DNA of 64,000 nt, taken from contig JAPLLG010000003.1 of assembly GCA_026387665.1 (NCBI GenBank), positions 1 to 64,000 on the forward strand. The letters run 5' to 3'. Under the pieces are notes generated by a model. The model was given only the letters and a program-made list of their open reading frames with translations. It did no database searches and was not told where the DNA came from. Below, in pieces: positions 12,101-17,431 of this stretch (within the stretch, counting starts at the first letter, position 1; the number at the start of each line of letters is the position of its first letter). Source of the stretch: Nitrospirota bacterium. Its GTDB lineage: Bacteria; Nitrospirota; Nitrospiria; Nitrospirales; Nitrospiraceae. The position numbers and the translations under genes are program-made.

Positions 12101-12213
12101 CCACAGTCGTGATCGGAGGCCTCTTCACCTCGACGATCTTGACCTTGCTGGTCATCCCGGCTCTCTACGGTCGGATCACTCGCAATGGGTCAGGTGTGAT
12201 GTCAGACGAGTAG
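9124..12213 (+). CDS. czcA: Heavy-metal RND efflux pump, CzcA/CusA type
   Basis: A 1029-residue inner-membrane, proton-driven pump with the RND topology: TM1 near residues 12-32, a large periplasmic loop, TM2-6 (residues about 335-480), a second loop, and TM7-12 ending at 1020. The HME-RND motif is clear at residues 395-409 (DFGLLVDGSVVMVDN). In CzcA the matching acidic residues are Asp402, Asp408 and Glu415; here the third is Asp, a conservative change in the proton path. The start is two bases after the adaptor's stop. Its last 12 bases overlap the convergent radical-SAM gene. The exact metal cannot be read from the sequence; I did not find the methionine pattern that would argue firmly for Cu/Ag. 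Confidence 0.9.
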   Translation: MERLFTLSLRYRFFTLVAMGLVIVIGLWSFMHLTIDAMPDLTPVQVQILTRSPALGPVEVEQFITFPIEASLSGLPALRELRSVSRYGLSVVTAIFDDRTDVYRARQLVSERLTRAMERIPAEYGRPIIGPLTTGLGEVYQFTLKGKGYSPMALRTLLEWEIGMRLRAVPGVVEVNIWGGEPQQFQVVLDPAKLQSFNLSLRQVFEALERNNAIAGGGYIERQREQLLIRGEALATQVSDLARIVVAHGPGGVPIYIADLAEVKEASALRIGAATVMGEGETVIGMVQMLAGENAQQVVELVKTRVKEIEATLPPGVTVEPYYDRTLLVSKVIQTVRNNLFEGGLLVIAVLFLFLGDLRAGVIVASAIPLSMLIAFSGMMQAGLSGNLMSLGAIDFGLLVDGSVVMVDNILRRLAKKGVMSQEERLNEILAAGREVLRPMALAVGIIILVYVPILTLTGIEGKMFRPMALTVILALAGSLLLAVTVTPLLAFWFVRARPGQESTPLIGKLCRVYEPCLRWAMARPALVVTPTVGLFVVSLGLSAWLGIEFVPRLDEGDMAIQLWRLPSASLSESVKGALDVERALRKFPEVVNVVTRTGSPEVATDVMGVELSDVFVILKPQQEWTTAGTREDLIAKMKPAILDAVPGVGLGFTQPIEMRFNELIAGTRSDLAVKIFGPDLEVLKQQAEAVARVLETVRGAADVKVEQVAGLPLLRVIVDREQIARYGLTADEVLTLVQTTRVGHVVGTVVQGPRRFDLVVRLADSASADPASLGNLLLPTAHGELVPLSRVATIRVDTGPAQISREHVQRRIVVENNIRGRDLGSFVAEAQKAVVREISLPTGYELTWGGQFQHLQEATSRLALVVPVTLLLILGVLSVIFGAMRPALLIFLNVPLALSGGIVALWLRGLPLSISAVIGFIALFGIAVLNGVVLVSHIRQLEAEGLPTDQAVMQGSMDRLRPVLMTALVASLGFLPMAVATSMGAEVQRPLATVVIGGLFTSTILTLLVIPALYGRITRNGSGVMSDE

Positions 12214-14388
12214 TAGGCCAGCGGTCCGGACTTTTTCCCAGGAGGCTGTGCCGAGGAAGGCTTCAAACTCTTTTGCTGTCCCTGGAAATGTCGCTCTCTC
12301 TTCCTTGAGCAATGGGTAGGGGCGAGAGGGGTTGTTGTGAGGGGTGGAGCGCCGAATCAGATCCTCAAGCCACTGGGCCTGTTGGGTGGAGAGGGTGAGG
12401 GCCTGATCGCTGGTCCGGCCCGGCAAAATGATCCTCGTTTTTCTTCCAATCGGTTCACAGACCGGTTGGCCTCCTAGCCAGACGAATCGTCGTTCTGCCT
12501 GCGGGTTGTCTTCGATGATTCTGCTCTTGAGGAGCTTTTGTATCCAGGTGGGGGAGACTCGTGGCTTTGGCACGGAATGGTCGAACCATTGGCGCAGGTC
12601 GAGGGTGAGACCGCGTCCTTCCAGATAATTGAGCATCGACCGTCGGAGCCCCTCTCCGAGCCATTCCGGCGTCTTACTCCGTCGATCCTCATGTTGGAGA
12701 TCGTTCTCCGCAAAACCCTGAAACTCCGGTCCGAGAATACGCAGACCATGGGCGGCAGGCTGGAGGCCGATCGGGCTATGGGCCGTGGCGGTAAAGCGAT
12801 GCCAAAAAGCGGACTGAATGAGGCCCGCTTTCACCAACTGCCTCACTCGCTCCAACGAGTCCACCGTTTCCTGAACCGTCTCAGAGGGGCAGCCGTACAT
12901 GAGGTAGGCATGGATGAGTATGCCCGCCTCTTTGAACGAGGTTGCGACTAGCGCGGTCTGATCGACGGTAATGCCTTTTTTGATTTTCTCCAGCAGACGG
13001 TCTGAGGCTGCTTCGAGTCCTGCCGTCACGGCGATGCAGCCTGAGGCGGCCAGGAGACGGCAGAGGTCTGGCGAGAAGGCTTCTTCAAAGCGAATATTGC
13101 CCCACCATGAAATTGTGATGCCCCGTTCCAGCAGCGCCAAGGCCAACGATTTTAAGGCAGCGGGAGGGGCAGCCTCGTCGACGAAGTGGAATCCCCGGCA
13201 GCCTGTCTCGGCAATCAGTTGTTCGATCTGCTGGATGAGCCGGTCGGTCGGCGTCATTTCGTAGCGGCTGATGTAAGTGAGCCCGACGTCACAAAACGTA
13301 CATTGCTTCCAGTAACAGCCATGGGCGACCGTGAGTTTGTTCCAATGACCTTCCGACCAGAGACGATGCATCGGGTTCGTGCTGTCCAGGATCGTGAGGT
13401 ATCGACTCAAGTCCAGGCCACGATAGGTTGGACAGCCGACCTCACCCATGCTGAATTCCGGATCAGATGTCTTATTCGCAAAAATCACGCGATCCTTCTC
13501 CCGATAGAAGGTCCGGCAGAGTTGCTGTCGTGACCTGGCGCCTGCCAGATGTTCGATCAACGACAGCAGCGGCCGTTCCCCGTCGTCGAGCGTGACGTAA
13601 TCGACATAGTCGAACACGCGGGGATCTGACAAACGACGTAGCTCCGTGTTGGCATAGCCTCCGCCCAGGGCAATGGCGAGATTCGGCCTCCGGCTCTTGA
13701 TCGAGTGGGCGATGCGAAAGGCCCCATAGAGGTTTCCGGGAAAGGGGACTGTGAGGGCGATGAGGGTTGGATTGAAACGGTCGAGATGTTGCCATAAGGA
13801 TTCGAGCATGAATCGATCCGTCAGAGTCGGAGGGATGGCGATCGCGTCGATGACGGTCTCGAACGATGAGGCGGCTCTGGCGATATGTTCGGCGTAGCGG
13901 CTCAGGGCAAAATGCGGAGAGACAGTCGCCTGGATCAGATCGGAAAGGTCTTCGAGGTAGAGGGTGGCATATCGTTTGGCGCGATCCTGCTCCGGCAAAG
14001 CTCGCAAAGACGACGTTCGTCCTCGATGGCCGGCGAATCGAGGGCCTTGGGGCAGAAAACCTGGACGGGCCAGGAGTAAGGCCAGAGAAGGATTGCGTCC
14101 CTGGAGGAATTCGATGACCGGTTCGATCGTGTTCAGATAGGCAGGCTCGATCGCGAGCATCTGTCTGGCTTCACCTGGCAGCTCATCCTCACGCTGGCGT
14201 ACCTGATCAAATACCGATTGGAGTCCCGATCGACTGAAGATCCGGAGCACCATGTCGATGCCGAGGTCTGCCTGATCGGCGTCAATCCCGCGGCTGCGGA
14301 GAAACCCCGTGAGATAGGCCGTGGCCGGGTAGGGCGTATTCAGCTGAGTGAGCGGAGGAATGAGCAGGAGAACGTGTGGGCCAGCCAT
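12202..14388 (-). CDS. B12-binding-domain radical SAM protein, unusual cluster motif
   Basis: A 728-residue protein. The N-terminus (HVLLLIPPLTQLNTPYPATA, then FLRSRGIDADQADLGID) and the LALGGGYANTELR region resemble the cobalamin-binding domain of class B radical SAM enzymes. The radical SAM domain starts near residue 350 with GCYWKQCTFCD. Its three cysteines are spaced CX4CX2C instead of the standard CX3CX2C; the DNA reads TGT TAC TGG AAG CAA TGT, so this is not an ORF artefact. Later segments (FVDEAAPPAALK; CIAVTAGLEAASDRLLEKIKKG) fit the Elp3-like barrel. Such proteins often methylate or rearrange unactivated carbons, but the substrate is unknown. The gene is convergent with the czcA-like gene. 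A role in lipid or peptide modification is possible but unsupported here. Confidence 0.8.
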   Translation of the reverse strand: MAGPHVLLLIPPLTQLNTPYPATAYLTGFLRSRGIDADQADLGIDMVLRIFSRSGLQSVFDQVRQREDELPGEARQMLAIEPAYLNTIEPVIEFLQGRNPSLALLLARPGFLPQGPRFAGHRGRTSSLRALPEQDRAKRYATLYLEDLSDLIQATVSPHFALSRYAEHIARAASSFETVIDAIAIPPTLTDRFMLESLWQHLDRFNPTLIALTVPFPGNLYGAFRIAHSIKSRRPNLAIALGGGYANTELRRLSDPRVFDYVDYVTLDDGERPLLSLIEHLAGARSRQQLCRTFYREKDRVIFANKTSDPEFSMGEVGCPTYRGLDLSRYLTILDSTNPMHRLWSEGHWNKLTVAHGCYWKQCTFCDVGLTYISRYEMTPTDRLIQQIEQLIAETGCRGFHFVDEAAPPAALKSLALALLERGITISWWGNIRFEEAFSPDLCRLLAASGCIAVTAGLEAASDRLLEKIKKGITVDQTALVATSFKEAGILIHAYLMYGCPSETVQETVDSLERVRQLVKAGLIQSAFWHRFTATAHSPIGLQPAAHGLRILGPEFQGFAENDLQHEDRRSKTPEWLGEGLRRSMLNYLEGRGLTLDLRQWFDHSVPKPRVSPTWIQKLLKSRIIEDNPQAERRFVWLGGQPVCEPIGRKTRIILPGRTSDQALTLSTQQAQWLEDLIRRSTPHNNPSRPYPLLKEERATFPGTAKEFEAFLGTASWEKVRTAGLLLV

Positions 14389-14463
14389 GGGCTCGACATA
14401 CCATACTGCCTGAGGGAATGCTACGAGACATTCCCTCGCTGGCTGGCCCTCGCGTTGAAGGGG

Positions 14464-14817
14464 TTATCGCTTCATGTCCAGAATCGTCCCCAGCATGTCG
14501 TCTGCCGTCCTCAGGGTACTGATATTCGCCTCGAATCCACGCTGGGCGATGATCTGGGTGACGGCTTCGTCTGCGAGATTGACGTTCGACAATTCCACCT
14601 GGGTGGGACCATGACCGCGGTCGCTCAGGACGGTCGGGCCGGCGGAGTCGTCTTTCCGAACGACGGGACGCACCCCCCCGTTGCTTCCCTCGACAAGATC
14701 CGTCTGCGATTTTTTGAATCCGTCGGTGTTGACGTTGGCCACATTATGAGCCGAGACCTCGATTTGTTTCGCATAGGCCGCGACTCCGGACAGGGCAGAA
14801 TGCATGGCGGATATCAT
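14464..14817 (-). CDS. Flagellar basal-body rod-like protein, orphan
   Basis: A 117-residue protein with both halves of the FlgB/FlgC family. The N-terminus (MISAMHSALSGVAAYAKQIEVSAHNVANVNTDGFKK) carries the rod ANxNTxG motif, and the C-terminal helix (VNLADEAVTQIIAQRGFEAN then TADDMLGTILDMKR) is the Flg_bbr_C domain. It is shorter than FlgC (about 140-150 residues) and lies alone, with no other flagellar gene in the window. The ATG at 14817 is fixed by a GGAGGT site. It lies about 110 bp downstream of a c-di-GMP-I riboswitch on the same strand, so its expression probably responds to c-di-GMP. It may be a true rod component from a scattered flagellar regulon, or a rod-like protein used elsewhere. 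Confidence 0.8.
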   Translation of the reverse strand: MISAMHSALSGVAAYAKQIEVSAHNVANVNTDGFKKSQTDLVEGSNGGVRPVVRKDDSAGPTVLSDRGHGPTQVELSNVNLADEAVTQIIAQRGFEANISTLRTADDMLGTILDMKR

Positions 14818-14886
14818 ACTGGCACCTCCATGATGAGTCTGAGTAGAACATCAGGTGGCCGCGGGAGAGGAAAGAAGTGAGGGGGT

Positions 14887-14928
14887 TAGCCGTACAGTTG
14901 CGCAGTGCAACCGGTCATGTGGCGGCTA
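14887..14928 (-). promoter_or_regulatory. Hairpin between the c-di-GMP riboswitch and the rod-like gene
   Basis: Nested inverted repeats: TAGCCG (14887-14892) pairs with CGGCTA (14923-14928), and GTTGC (14897-14901) with GCAAC (14907-14911). No T-run follows in the direction of transcription, so it is not a classical terminator. It may be part of the riboswitch expression platform. Confidence 0.4.
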
Positions 14929-14929
14929 G

Positions 14930-15015
14930 GCTGACCCTGGAACAACTTCGTTCCTGCTTAGGTCCCTTGGCTTTGCGTCCCACCCTCTCGGATGGTTTGC
15001 CCTTTTCACCTGGCG
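14930..15015 (-). promoter_or_regulatory. Cyclic di-GMP-I (GEMM) riboswitch aptamer
   Basis: On the minus strand the GEMM-I core reads GAAAAGGGCAAACC, then the P2 hairpin CCATCC-GAGA-GGGTGG closed by a GNRA tetraloop, then GGGACGCAAAGCC, then AAGGGACCTAAG with the tetraloop-receptor CCTAA, and a P3-side hairpin GGAAC/GTTCC. The conserved core maps to 14959-15003; the outer limits are approximate. All hallmark bases are present in order. The only gene downstream on this strand within reach is the flagellar-rod-like gene starting at 14817. In this family, c-di-GMP binding alters transcription termination or translation; which direction applies here cannot be read with confidence. Confidence 0.9.
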
Positions 15016-15153
15016 AGTGCTTCCGATAGATCGTGAAGCGCCCGTCTTTTTGCTAGTCCGAGTATAGCACCGATTGGGGTTCAGCACTCGCGGTGAACGG
15101 CATGCAATGGTCACCAATGAGATGCAACCAGCACTTGCAAGAGAAGAATTTGC

Positions 15154-16308
15154 CTAGTCGCTAGGGAGGGTCTGTTGCGCGAGATCGTCGTCGAGGGTTG
15201 CCCAGGTGATGCTCTTGGCGACGGTGGCGAAGAGGCGGTGCAGCCAGGGGTGCCGGTGCTGGCAGTAGTTATTGAGAGGAACGAGGCGATGTTCGAGGTC
15301 GAGCTTTGCGCGATAGCCGGTTTGGCCGCTTTGAAAGTCGGTTGCGCCGACAGAGGAGGCCCAGATGACCGCTTGCTCCCAAAGGCGAAAGTAGAGGAAC
15401 CAGGGACCGCTCAATTCATAATCCAGACCGATGAATTTATTGATCACGCGGGGTCCGATGCGAAAACAGAGCATGAAGGCCACGAGCTTCCCTGTCTGTT
15501 GGTTCCGCAGCAGGACAAAGTAGGACGTGTCTTCCGCTGCGATGAGTTCGAAAAACTTTGGCGTCAGGTGTTCGAACTTCGTCTTGCCCTTTTCATAGGT
15601 CTGCAAGAAAAGCGGGAAGATTTCTTCGAGGAGCGCAGGGCTGGGATGCTGAAGTATCGTCGCGTGAAGTTCGCCGAGCTCTTTGCTGCGCCGGAGCTTC
15701 TTGCGAAGGTTGTGGCGGTGGGAGGAGGTGAGGGCCTGCAGATAGGCTTCGAAGCCGCCTGCAGGCAAGGGAAGGCGAGTGCCGGGATAGCTGACCAGTT
15801 TGAAGAGGCCCCGGCTGGCGCATAAGGGATCCAGCGCGGCGGACATCGTGTCCGGGAAATCCTTCCAGACGATCATCGGCGCGCCAGCCTGGCGAGCTCG
15901 GACCGTGAGTGCGTCATGGAGGATCGGCGCCACGTCAGCCAGCTCTGCTCCAGGGAGCAAGCCGATCGTGCCTTCATCGCTGCAGGGGGAGCCGACGAAG
16001 AGGGTCCGTTGATAGCGCAGGCGAGGGATCACCGCTCCGGCGATACGGAGGATCTTGGCAATCGCGGGAGGCGCGACAAGATCGATCGGGACATCCATCA
16101 GGAAGGCGGGGGCGATGCCGACCGGCAGGGCGCCTCGCTCAAGAATGGCGTAGGCGAAGGTGAATTGCGATTCCAGGCCGCTCCGCTCGAGCGCCCGATA
16201 CCACCAGAGTCCCTCAAGGGGCGGGGGGAAACAGCGGTCCCAGAGATCAGAGGGGATCTCCTCTACCGAGGAAACCCAGCGTATGGTTACGGACTCAGTC
16301 GGCTGCAT
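15154..16308 (-). CDS. GNAT/FemAB-like acyl- or aminoacyl-transferase family protein
   Basis: A 384-residue soluble protein resembling the FemAB/GNAT proteins annotated as peptidoglycan biosynthesis/recognition or DUF482-like. The features are an N-terminal WDRCFPPPLEGLWWYRALE segment, a central basic helix (SSHRHNLRKKLRRSKELGEL) typical of the acyl-CoA or tRNA-binding core of these duplicated GNAT folds, and a second GNAT half (YFVLLRNQQTGKLVAFMLCF; GLDYELSGPWFLYFRLWEQA; TDFQSGQTGYRAKLDLEHRL). No signal peptide is visible. It starts 10 bp after the msrB stop codon on the same strand, so the two are co-transcribed. The donor and acceptor are unknown; some relatives modify lipids or exopolysaccharide. 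Confidence 0.65.
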   Translation of the reverse strand: MQPTESVTIRWVSSVEEIPSDLWDRCFPPPLEGLWWYRALERSGLESQFTFAYAILERGALPVGIAPAFLMDVPIDLVAPPAIAKILRIAGAVIPRLRYQRTLFVGSPCSDEGTIGLLPGAELADVAPILHDALTVRARQAGAPMIVWKDFPDTMSAALDPLCASRGLFKLVSYPGTRLPLPAGGFEAYLQALTSSHRHNLRKKLRRSKELGELHATILQHPSPALLEEIFPLFLQTYEKGKTKFEHLTPKFFELIAAEDTSYFVLLRNQQTGKLVAFMLCFRIGPRVINKFIGLDYELSGPWFLYFRLWEQAVIWASSVGATDFQSGQTGYRAKLDLEHRLVPLNNYCQHRHPWLHRLFATVAKSITWATLDDDLAQQTLPSD

Positions 16309-16318
16309 CAGCTCTGTC

Positions 16319-16744
16319 TCATTGCTGCCCTGGGATAAACTTCAACGCCACCCCGTTGATGCAGTAGCGCAGCCCCGTCGGCTTGGGTCCGTCCTTGAAG
16401 AGGTGCCCTTGATGTCCTTCGCAGCGGGCGCAGTGGACTTCGGTCCTTGGGAGAATCAATTTGTAATCGGTCGTGGTCTCGATGGCTTCCGGCGCGATCG
16501 GTTGCCAGAAGCTGGGCCAGCCAGTGCCGCTGTCGAACTTATGCTCGGATGAAAACAGCGGCAGATCGCATCCGGCGCAGAAATAGATGCCGGCTGTCTT
16601 GTTGTCGTGAAAGTTGTTGCTGAAGGGCCGCTCGGTGTTTTCATGCCTTAGGACCCGGTAGGCCTCCGGCGCGAGGAGCTTCTTCCAGTCTTCGTCGGTC
16701 TTCACCACTTTGGCAATTGGACCGATGTCAATTTTTTGTGGCAT
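16319..16744 (-). CDS. msrB: Peptide-methionine (R)-S-oxide reductase MsrB
   Basis: A 141-residue repair enzyme that reduces methionine-R-sulfoxide in proteins. The zinc-binding pairs are Cys56/Cys59 (CAGC) and Cys105/Cys108 (CARC); the catalytic Cys128 lies in RYCINGVALKF. Substrate-pocket residues are in GTGWPSFW and HCARCEGHQGHLF. The ATG at 16744 has an AAGGGAG site; the ten-residue extension upstream lacks one. It has no signal peptide and is therefore cytoplasmic. I see no second recycling cysteine near the N-terminus, so it may use thioredoxin directly or a one-Cys mechanism. The acyltransferase-like gene follows in the same operon. Confidence 0.93.
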   Translation of the reverse strand: MPQKIDIGPIAKVVKTDEDWKKLLAPEAYRVLRHENTERPFSNNFHDNKTAGIYFCAGCDLPLFSSEHKFDSGTGWPSFWQPIAPEAIETTTDYKLILPRTEVHCARCEGHQGHLFKDGPKPTGLRYCINGVALKFIPGQQ

Positions 16745-16842
16745 GGGGATTCTCCCTTTCTCGTAGGCCTGCATGGCAAATCAGTCGAATCGCGCGGGCA
16801 ATCCTTACATAAGGCGTTACGGAAGGGCAAGATGAGGATGCG

Positions 16843-17059
16843 TGCGGTGGAGACGGTTGCCCCACCGGCTCCGGCACTTCGGCGTGACCACACTACGTTG
16901 CTCATCTGCTCGATGCCGAAACTTGTTCCGTTCCTCGCTTCGAGGAAAACGGAACTTCGAACATCGGCATCGCCAGCCGGAGGCTGGTCGCATCTGATCA
17001 ACAAGTGTGGTGCCCGCGCCTTCGTGCAAGTCGCAGATGGGGCAACCGTCTTCACCGCA
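16843..17059. repeat. 217-bp long palindrome
   Basis: A long imperfect inverted repeat. The outer arms are 16843-16864 and 17038-17059 (TGCGGTG-x-AGACGGTTGCCCCA against its complement, 21 of 22 match). Inside, ACCACACT pairs with AGTGTGGT. At the core, CGATGCCGA (16911-16919) pairs with TCGGCATCG (16964-16972), GTTCCGTT (16925-16932) with AACGGAAC (16948-16955), and CCTCG with CGAGG at the tip. It has no ORF of its own that looks coding. A partial third copy of the outer arm (GCAAGTCGCAG then GGGGCAACCGTCT) occurs at 17170-17195. It lies upstream of msrB and may be a MITE-like or REP-like element. Confidence 0.75.
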
Positions 17060-17305
17060 CTGGGAATGGAGGGAGGAAGGGACCGTGGGTCTCCGCTTCT
17101 CCTATGACGTTCGCGCTGAGCCCCAGCCCCGCACTGGGAGAGAGGGTTTCAGAGATCTATCGTGCTCGCGCAAGTCGCAGGCGGGGCAACCGTCTCTGCG
17201 CTCGCATGGAAAAGGCGGACTAAAACTAGCAGGGTGTTGAGAAACGATTTGGGACTCAAGGAAACGTGGTGTTCAAGTGGTTGCGAACGGTCCCCCCACT
17301 GCCCC

Positions 17306-17431
17306 GCAGGCTGTTCAAAAAGGCTGTCCAGCAAGGCCGCAGCGAGCGAAGGGGCGAAGCGTACTCTCCGCTGTACGTTGAGCTTCTGAGCGACGCGAGA
17401 ACGACGCTGGCGGTCTTTTTCAACAGCCTGC
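17306..17431 (-). repeat. 3'-end near-palindromic element, copy A (diverged)
   Basis: A 126-bp element with termini GCAGGCTGTTCAAAAA (17306-17321) and TTTTTCAACAGCCTGC (17416-17431). The internal blocks CCAGCAAGGCCGCAGCGAG and CGAGAACGACGCTGGCGG are shared with copies B-E at 30425, 34533, 54915 and 57227. It touches the stop codon of the DUF1810 gene and, read on that gene's strand, has the same orientation as the other copies have to their genes. This is the most diverged copy; the central GTAC stem is altered. Confidence 0.85.

Follow-up and report, generated by a model that had tools for sequence, protein, structure and literature searches.

Which gene is controlled by the c-di-GMP riboswitch of this locus, and in which direction? 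The DNA analysed, referred to as the window, is a stretch of 64,000 nucleotides from a Nitrospira, an organism whose closest named relative is the MAG Nitrospira lenta isolate ZH-03apr19-105 (L108; 96% protein identity). We favour the reading, at a probability of about 60%, that a single-gene unit carries a c-di-GMP-I (GGC) riboswitch in its 5' UTR, and that this riboswitch is a translational OFF switch acting on an accessory, late protein of the rod/hook family.

The riboswitch and its ligand

The window contains a genuine c-di-GMP-I riboswitch:

14917 to 15010, minus strand: c-di-GMP-I-GGC riboswitch aptamer (P1 GUG/CAC; P2 with GAGA loop; P3 with CCUAA; RF03167, RF01051)

The Rfam model RF03167 (c-di-GMP-I-GGC) is matched over its full length at 15010-14917 on the minus strand with 64.0 bits (E 8.6e-13; gathering score 59 bits), the sole Rfam match over cut-offs in the 64-kb window. 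The initial annotation had recognized a GEMM-I core by its motifs and had proposed a covariance search with RF01051 (c-di-GMP-I) as the check. This search returns 58.9 bits (E 5.8e-11) against a gathering score of 35 bits, and nothing else in the 2.64-Mb genome exceeds that cut-off. Further c-di-GMP-I-like matches in this genome all score below 19 bits and were discarded as noise. The motifs quoted for the core are all present (GGGCAAACC, a GAGA (GNRA) loop on P2, GGGACGCAAAGCC and CCTAA). Membership in RF03167 agrees with the GGC core (G20-G21-C22) and the conserved AAACC...GGGACGC pairing, found in the sequence and in an alignment of 25 members; G20 and the GGC signature are retained in all 25 aligned riboswitch-bearing genomes. 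The aptamer class as such is not new, because RF03167 is widespread: 75 of 235 genomes of the order contain it, with up to nine copies each.

With respect to the ligand, position 15001 is what we take to be the equivalent of Vc2 G20, by a mapping based on the Vc2 structure. The G at this position predicts c-di-GMP, as does the presence of GGDEF proteins with ordinary GD motifs in the window genome. A switch for 3',3'-cGAMP, of the GEMM-Ib type, is hardly to be expected. A mere lead towards it is the similarity between the 3' half of the aptamer and Geobacter GEMM-Ib RNAs. Against it, the window genome has genes for at least six GGDEF proteins, and all five of the motifs read are GD, none being the cGAMP-type GS. 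Moreover, the G20 position of Vc2, one of those involved in selectivity (PMC9262584), is not occupied by the A of GEMM-Ib RNAs, but by G in the window and in all aligned relatives. The cGAMP specificity was rejected on these two grounds.

The mini-rod gene and its product

The initial annotation placed a lone rod-like gene of 117 residues 3' of the riboswitch, and this gene is indeed present:

14464 to 14817, minus strand: mini-rod gene (117 aa), with rod/hook N- and C-terminal (D0-type) helices and a short beta-hairpin linker

The upstream position of the aptamer is thus as described, but the distance of about 110 bp needs correction, since 99 nt separate the aptamer 3' end from the ATG. The protein scores above the Pfam cut-offs for PF06429 (48.9 bits, cut-off 23) and PF00460 (29.2 bits, cut-off 20.7). 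Its description as FlgB/FlgC-like agrees, as regards FlgC, with the predicted fold, but not with the sequence, which is closer to FlgG/FlgE and falls short of both equivalog cut-offs (FlgC TIGR01395, 35.1 versus 102.1 bits; FlgB TIGR01396, 18.5 versus 59.05 bits). The AlphaFold2 model, of modest confidence (pLDDT 69.8), has its best Foldseek matches in Salmonella proximal-rod chains (7cg0 and 7bin_V, TM 0.75-0.81). 7bin_V is named FlgC, and it is FlgC that the predicted fold fits best.

Immediately 3' of the mini-rod gene, a B12-binding radical SAM protein of 728 amino acids is encoded (12202-14388, minus strand), which matches several methyltransferase-type models (RiPP, PhpK-type), all below their cut-offs. 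The two genes are separated by a perfect 9-bp inverted repeat (14412-14437, GAGGGAATG...CATTCCCTC) without a T run, which may be the end or an insulator of the single-gene unit. Elsewhere in the window, PADLOC detects a complete-looking Avs3 anti-phage system (18373-25354, minus strand), in which Avs3a (2097 aa, 3095 bits) precedes Avs3b (268 aa, 276 bits), and several copies of a short GC-rich repeat at 16702-17334 show as repeated peptide strings in overlapping open reading frames.

Conservation in Nitrospira

A full-length ortholog of the mini-rod gene is found in 62 of the 147 genomes of the family. The same genomes contain about 34 riboswitch copies over the cut-off, and 25 of these lie 92-114 nt upstream of a mini-rod gene, as measured to the aptamer motif GGGTCAGCCTAG. 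The remaining copies precede other genes, which, where readable, encode surface-type proteins with BACON, fn3 or CBM6 domains. In other genera of the family (L050, L102, L107, L106), c-di-GMP-I riboswitches before BACON/fn3 surface-type genes are accompanied by a long helix (at least 12 bp) just before the start codon, a potential competitor for the aptamer tail.

The comparison of the window genome with G085, a genome with a 96% identical protein, is informative about constraint. The mini-rod genes differ in 5 amino-acid-changing and 11 silent codons (dN/dS 0.13-0.18, binomial p 2.6e-4). Nucleotide identity is 98.9% in the aptamer, 98.8% in the promoter region and 97.0% in the platform, versus 92.9% in the downstream flank and 93.2% further upstream. 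Judging from this pair of genomes, both the gene and its leader have been under purifying selection.

More distant mini-rod proteins of about 90-150 aa (L165, L167, L168-L187) apparently belong to an undescribed, widespread family. Two of them (L165 and L167) are from Nitrospirota and have near-perfect sigma-28 promoters; others occur in Desulfovibrio, Oxalobacteraceae and Chitinimonas.

Exchange of riboswitch and sigma-28 control

The leaders of 82 orthologs and near homologs of the mini-rod gene were read. A riboswitch is present in 32 and a sigma-28 (FliA-type) promoter in 53 of them. Eighteen leaders, including that of the window, have the riboswitch alone, 14 have both elements, 39 the sigma-28 promoter alone and 7 a sigma-70 promoter alone (TGCTACACT; N. 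moscoviensis, L164, is among these), leaving 4 others. The sigma-28-only leaders carry TNAAGTTY-N11/12-CCGATA 45-110 nt before the ATG and no riboswitch; nearly all of their motif scores are equalled by at most 5 of 60 shuffles, the weak case being G074 (17 of 60). The motif matches the mapped FliA consensus of Bdellovibrio, TTAAG-N16-CCGATA (PMC3627812), and is also found 5' of fliD and fliC in the relative G009. In the window leader, no sigma-28 site was found: the best score, 9 of 16 matches, is reached by 57 of 60 shuffles.

In the 14 dual leaders, the FliA-type promoter immediately precedes the aptamer, at a distance of about 21 nt to the GGCAAAC core. The stretch that follows the -10 box (TCGACAGGGCG) is similar to that of the sigma-28-only leaders (TCGACRRGGCG), as would be expected if an aptamer cassette had been lost or gained behind a fixed promoter. 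On the gene tree, the leader classes require at least 8 changes, versus 33.9 in shuffles, and at least three riboswitch changes are forced by the starred branches. Since the root of the tree was not inferred, gains and losses of the aptamer are not told apart.

The initial annotation saw in this locus a direct link from the second messenger to a basal-body component. The flagellar side of this claim finds indirect support, because orthologs in relatives carry FliA-type promoters, 39 instead of the riboswitch and 14 together with it, and this ties the gene to flagellar control despite the absence of such a site in the window. The identification as a basal-body component fares less well: the protein fails the FlgB and FlgC models, many flagellated relatives lack the gene, and an ordinary rod role is improbable for a late, FliA-dependent protein, which, in species where FliA drives it, would be made after completion of rod and hook. 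The mini-rod protein thus appears to be an accessory that flagella do not need. Our guess is that it acts at the finished axis, or elsewhere.

Does the window organism have flagella?

Presence of the mini-rod gene tracks that of FlhA (58 of 108 genomes with FlhA versus 4 of 39 without, p 1.2e-6, an optimistic value since the genomes are related). The window genome is one of the four carriers without FlhA, and FlhA, FliA and other rod/hook genes have no matches in its assembly, although one MCP is present. It could be argued that the organism has lost its flagellum and that gene and switch are decaying leftovers, as the ortholog in G070, where FlhA, FliA and MCPs were not found either, is broken. 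However, the window gene is intact and has been constrained since the split from G085. Furthermore, G085 has a flagellar cluster (FleSR-FlgBC-FliFGHIJK-FlgDE) on another contig, and contig C5 of the window genome, in synteny with the sequence to the left of the G009 flagellar cluster, begins at the very point where this cluster would be expected. In the window genome (L214:1-8610, the start of C5) as in G085 (L215), contigs break in or next to the gene to the left of the cluster, so that flagellar genes can easily escape notice in MAGs of this kind, and their absence from the assembly is not evidence for the absence of flagella. We therefore regard a relic as quite improbable, and the related idea that gene and switch were kept after flagellar loss was withdrawn on account of the cluster in the nearest relative, G085, and the C5 break.

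Alternatively, the mini-rod protein might work outside the flagellum, its rod fold reflecting ancestry only. The gene is located away from the flagellar cluster of its relatives, in keeping with such a role, and so is its absence from many flagellated genomes. G139 has an intact copy although FlhA, FliA and MCPs were not found, and may be a true non-flagellated carrier. We nevertheless consider a non-flagellar function unlikely in view of the FliA promoters on most orthologs and the co-occurrence with FlhA.

Leader elements and direction of the switch

Between promoter and start codon, the following elements were noted in addition to the aptamer:

15061 to 15069, minus strand: sigma-70-type promoter element (extended -10, TGCTATACT), about 50 nt 5' of the aptamer
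14897 to 14911, minus strand: nested hairpin GTTGC-ACTGC-GCAAC, described in the initial annotation and seen in the sequence
14887 to 14892, minus strand: CGGCTA, candidate anti-aptamer strand, with complementarity to UAGCCG at 14928-14923 in the aptamer tail
14821 to 14860, minus strand: candidate Shine-Dalgarno-sequestering hairpin GGCCACCTGATG...CATCATGGAGGTGCC (MFE -13.3 kcal/mol, z -0.89)
14823 to 14829, minus strand: Shine-Dalgarno sequence GGAGGTG, conserved in nearly all orthologs

The assignment of the extended -10 element rests on conservation (most relatives with the riboswitch have TGCTAYACT at this position), because a consensus scanner gave no full -35/-10 pair in the window leader. 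No terminator-like site was found in 14380-15200. Transcriptional control by an intrinsic terminator was rejected for this reason, which makes translational control the default guess.

The nested hairpin had been suggested as the expression platform. The hairpin itself exists, but it is no more than a candidate platform, as counterparts with changed bases recur solely within the window's clade, in several of its members, and other clades have different sequences there. A single conserved expression platform was also dismissed, since the sequences 3' of the aptamer differ between clades. Six of the seven members of the window's clade have the CGGCTA strand without any change; by itself, the pairing energy of this strand with the aptamer tail is no better than that of shuffles. 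The hairpin over the Shine-Dalgarno sequence is a plausible candidate that is not significant alone. Over its full length, the window leader is no more stably folded than shuffles (z -0.40).

When the aptamer helices are enforced, the predicted accessibility of the Shine-Dalgarno sequence falls in 29 of the 32 riboswitch leaders, by 0.10 on average versus 0.03 for shuffled platforms. For the window leader, the predicted drop is 0.07, which is matched by 9 of 25 shuffles. In clades such as G073/G135/G124, one segment can pair with either the aptamer tail or the Shine-Dalgarno sequence, an arrangement expected of an OFF switch. Covering of the Shine-Dalgarno sequence is significant in some clades only, and only the copies before surface proteins in other genera (both of those in G012, and those in G021 and G002; p <=0.01) show clear, strong pairing with the aptamer tail; in the window, neither reaches significance.

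In our model, the leader would be transcribed from the sigma-70-type promoter with the extended -10 at 15069-15061. At low c-di-GMP, the 3' tail of the aptamer would be free for downstream RNA, and the ribosome-binding site relatively open. At high c-di-GMP, the aptamer would hold its tail, a downstream strand could cover the Shine-Dalgarno sequence, and translation would go down. Motile cells would then be the main producers of the mini-rod protein, just as with FliA-driven expression in relatives. The OFF direction, which we infer from predicted folds, agrees with the FliA promoters because both would confine the protein to motile cells; they also suggest the accessory late flagellar role.

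It is conceivable that the same riboswitch is instead an ON switch, so that c-di-GMP would induce the protein during settling, when it might, for instance, cap or lock the axis of the flagellum or be a surface protein. Other copies in the family precede BACON/fn3/CBM6 surface-type proteins, whose expression is expected in sessile cells, and the window leader gives no readable direction. The ON direction would, however, oppose FliA, which acts in motile cells, and FliA promoters stand directly before the same aptamer in 14 relatives and alone in 39. As the folding also leans to OFF in 29 of 32 leaders, we think an ON switch rather unlikely. One could speculate, with a low expectation of being right, that in Nitrospira a late-made, D0-only rod-like protein of a kind not described before modifies the assembled flagellum (for example lock, plug or release), and that the choice between FliA and riboswitch has been exchanged repeatedly between close species.

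Comparison with known systems

The literature search retrieved no paper that deals with mini-rod proteins or with c-di-GMP riboswitches of Nitrospira. The aptamer resembles other members of RF03167 (in a clan with RF01051) in passing the full-model cut-off and in the GGC signature. It differs in its target, as no described member with a mini-rod gene was found. As far as the papers searched show, neither the mini-rod target nor the exchange with FliA control nor the dual leaders have been described before. A stand-alone rod-like gene that is run by sigma-28 in close relatives is an unusual target for a known riboswitch class. The presence of riboswitch, sigma-28 promoter, both or neither on one orthologous gene suggests that the mini-rod gene takes part in the decision between swimming and settling, and amounts to a natural experiment on how RNA can take the place of transcriptional control over this decision in nitrifiers. 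In addition, an unstudied family of tiny rod-like proteins becomes testable.

The mini-rod protein shares with FlgC and the rod/hook family (FlgG, FlgE) the N- and C-terminal rod helices and the match to proximal-rod folds (TM 0.75-0.81). In contrast to FlgC and FlgB, it is below the model cut-offs, stands alone, and is under late (FliA) or c-di-GMP control in many relatives. The merRNA of Bdellovibrio, also a c-di-GMP riboswitch RNA, is confined to the motile attack phase, and the attack-phase promoters of this organism have the same FliA motif (PMC3627812). However, merRNA has no downstream gene and is not listed with a FliA promoter, whereas the Nitrospira aptamer leads a conserved gene, with FliA directly before it in 14 relatives.

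A known parallel for a c-di-GMP class I aptamer before a flagellar rod-type gene is Cd1 (Cdi-1-3) of C. difficile, an OFF switch 5' of the flgB operon (PMC6366702). Cd1 acts through an intrinsic terminator on an early operon of 23 kb. In the window, no terminator was found between the aptamer and the one small orphan gene, and control is, unlike in Cd1, probably translational.
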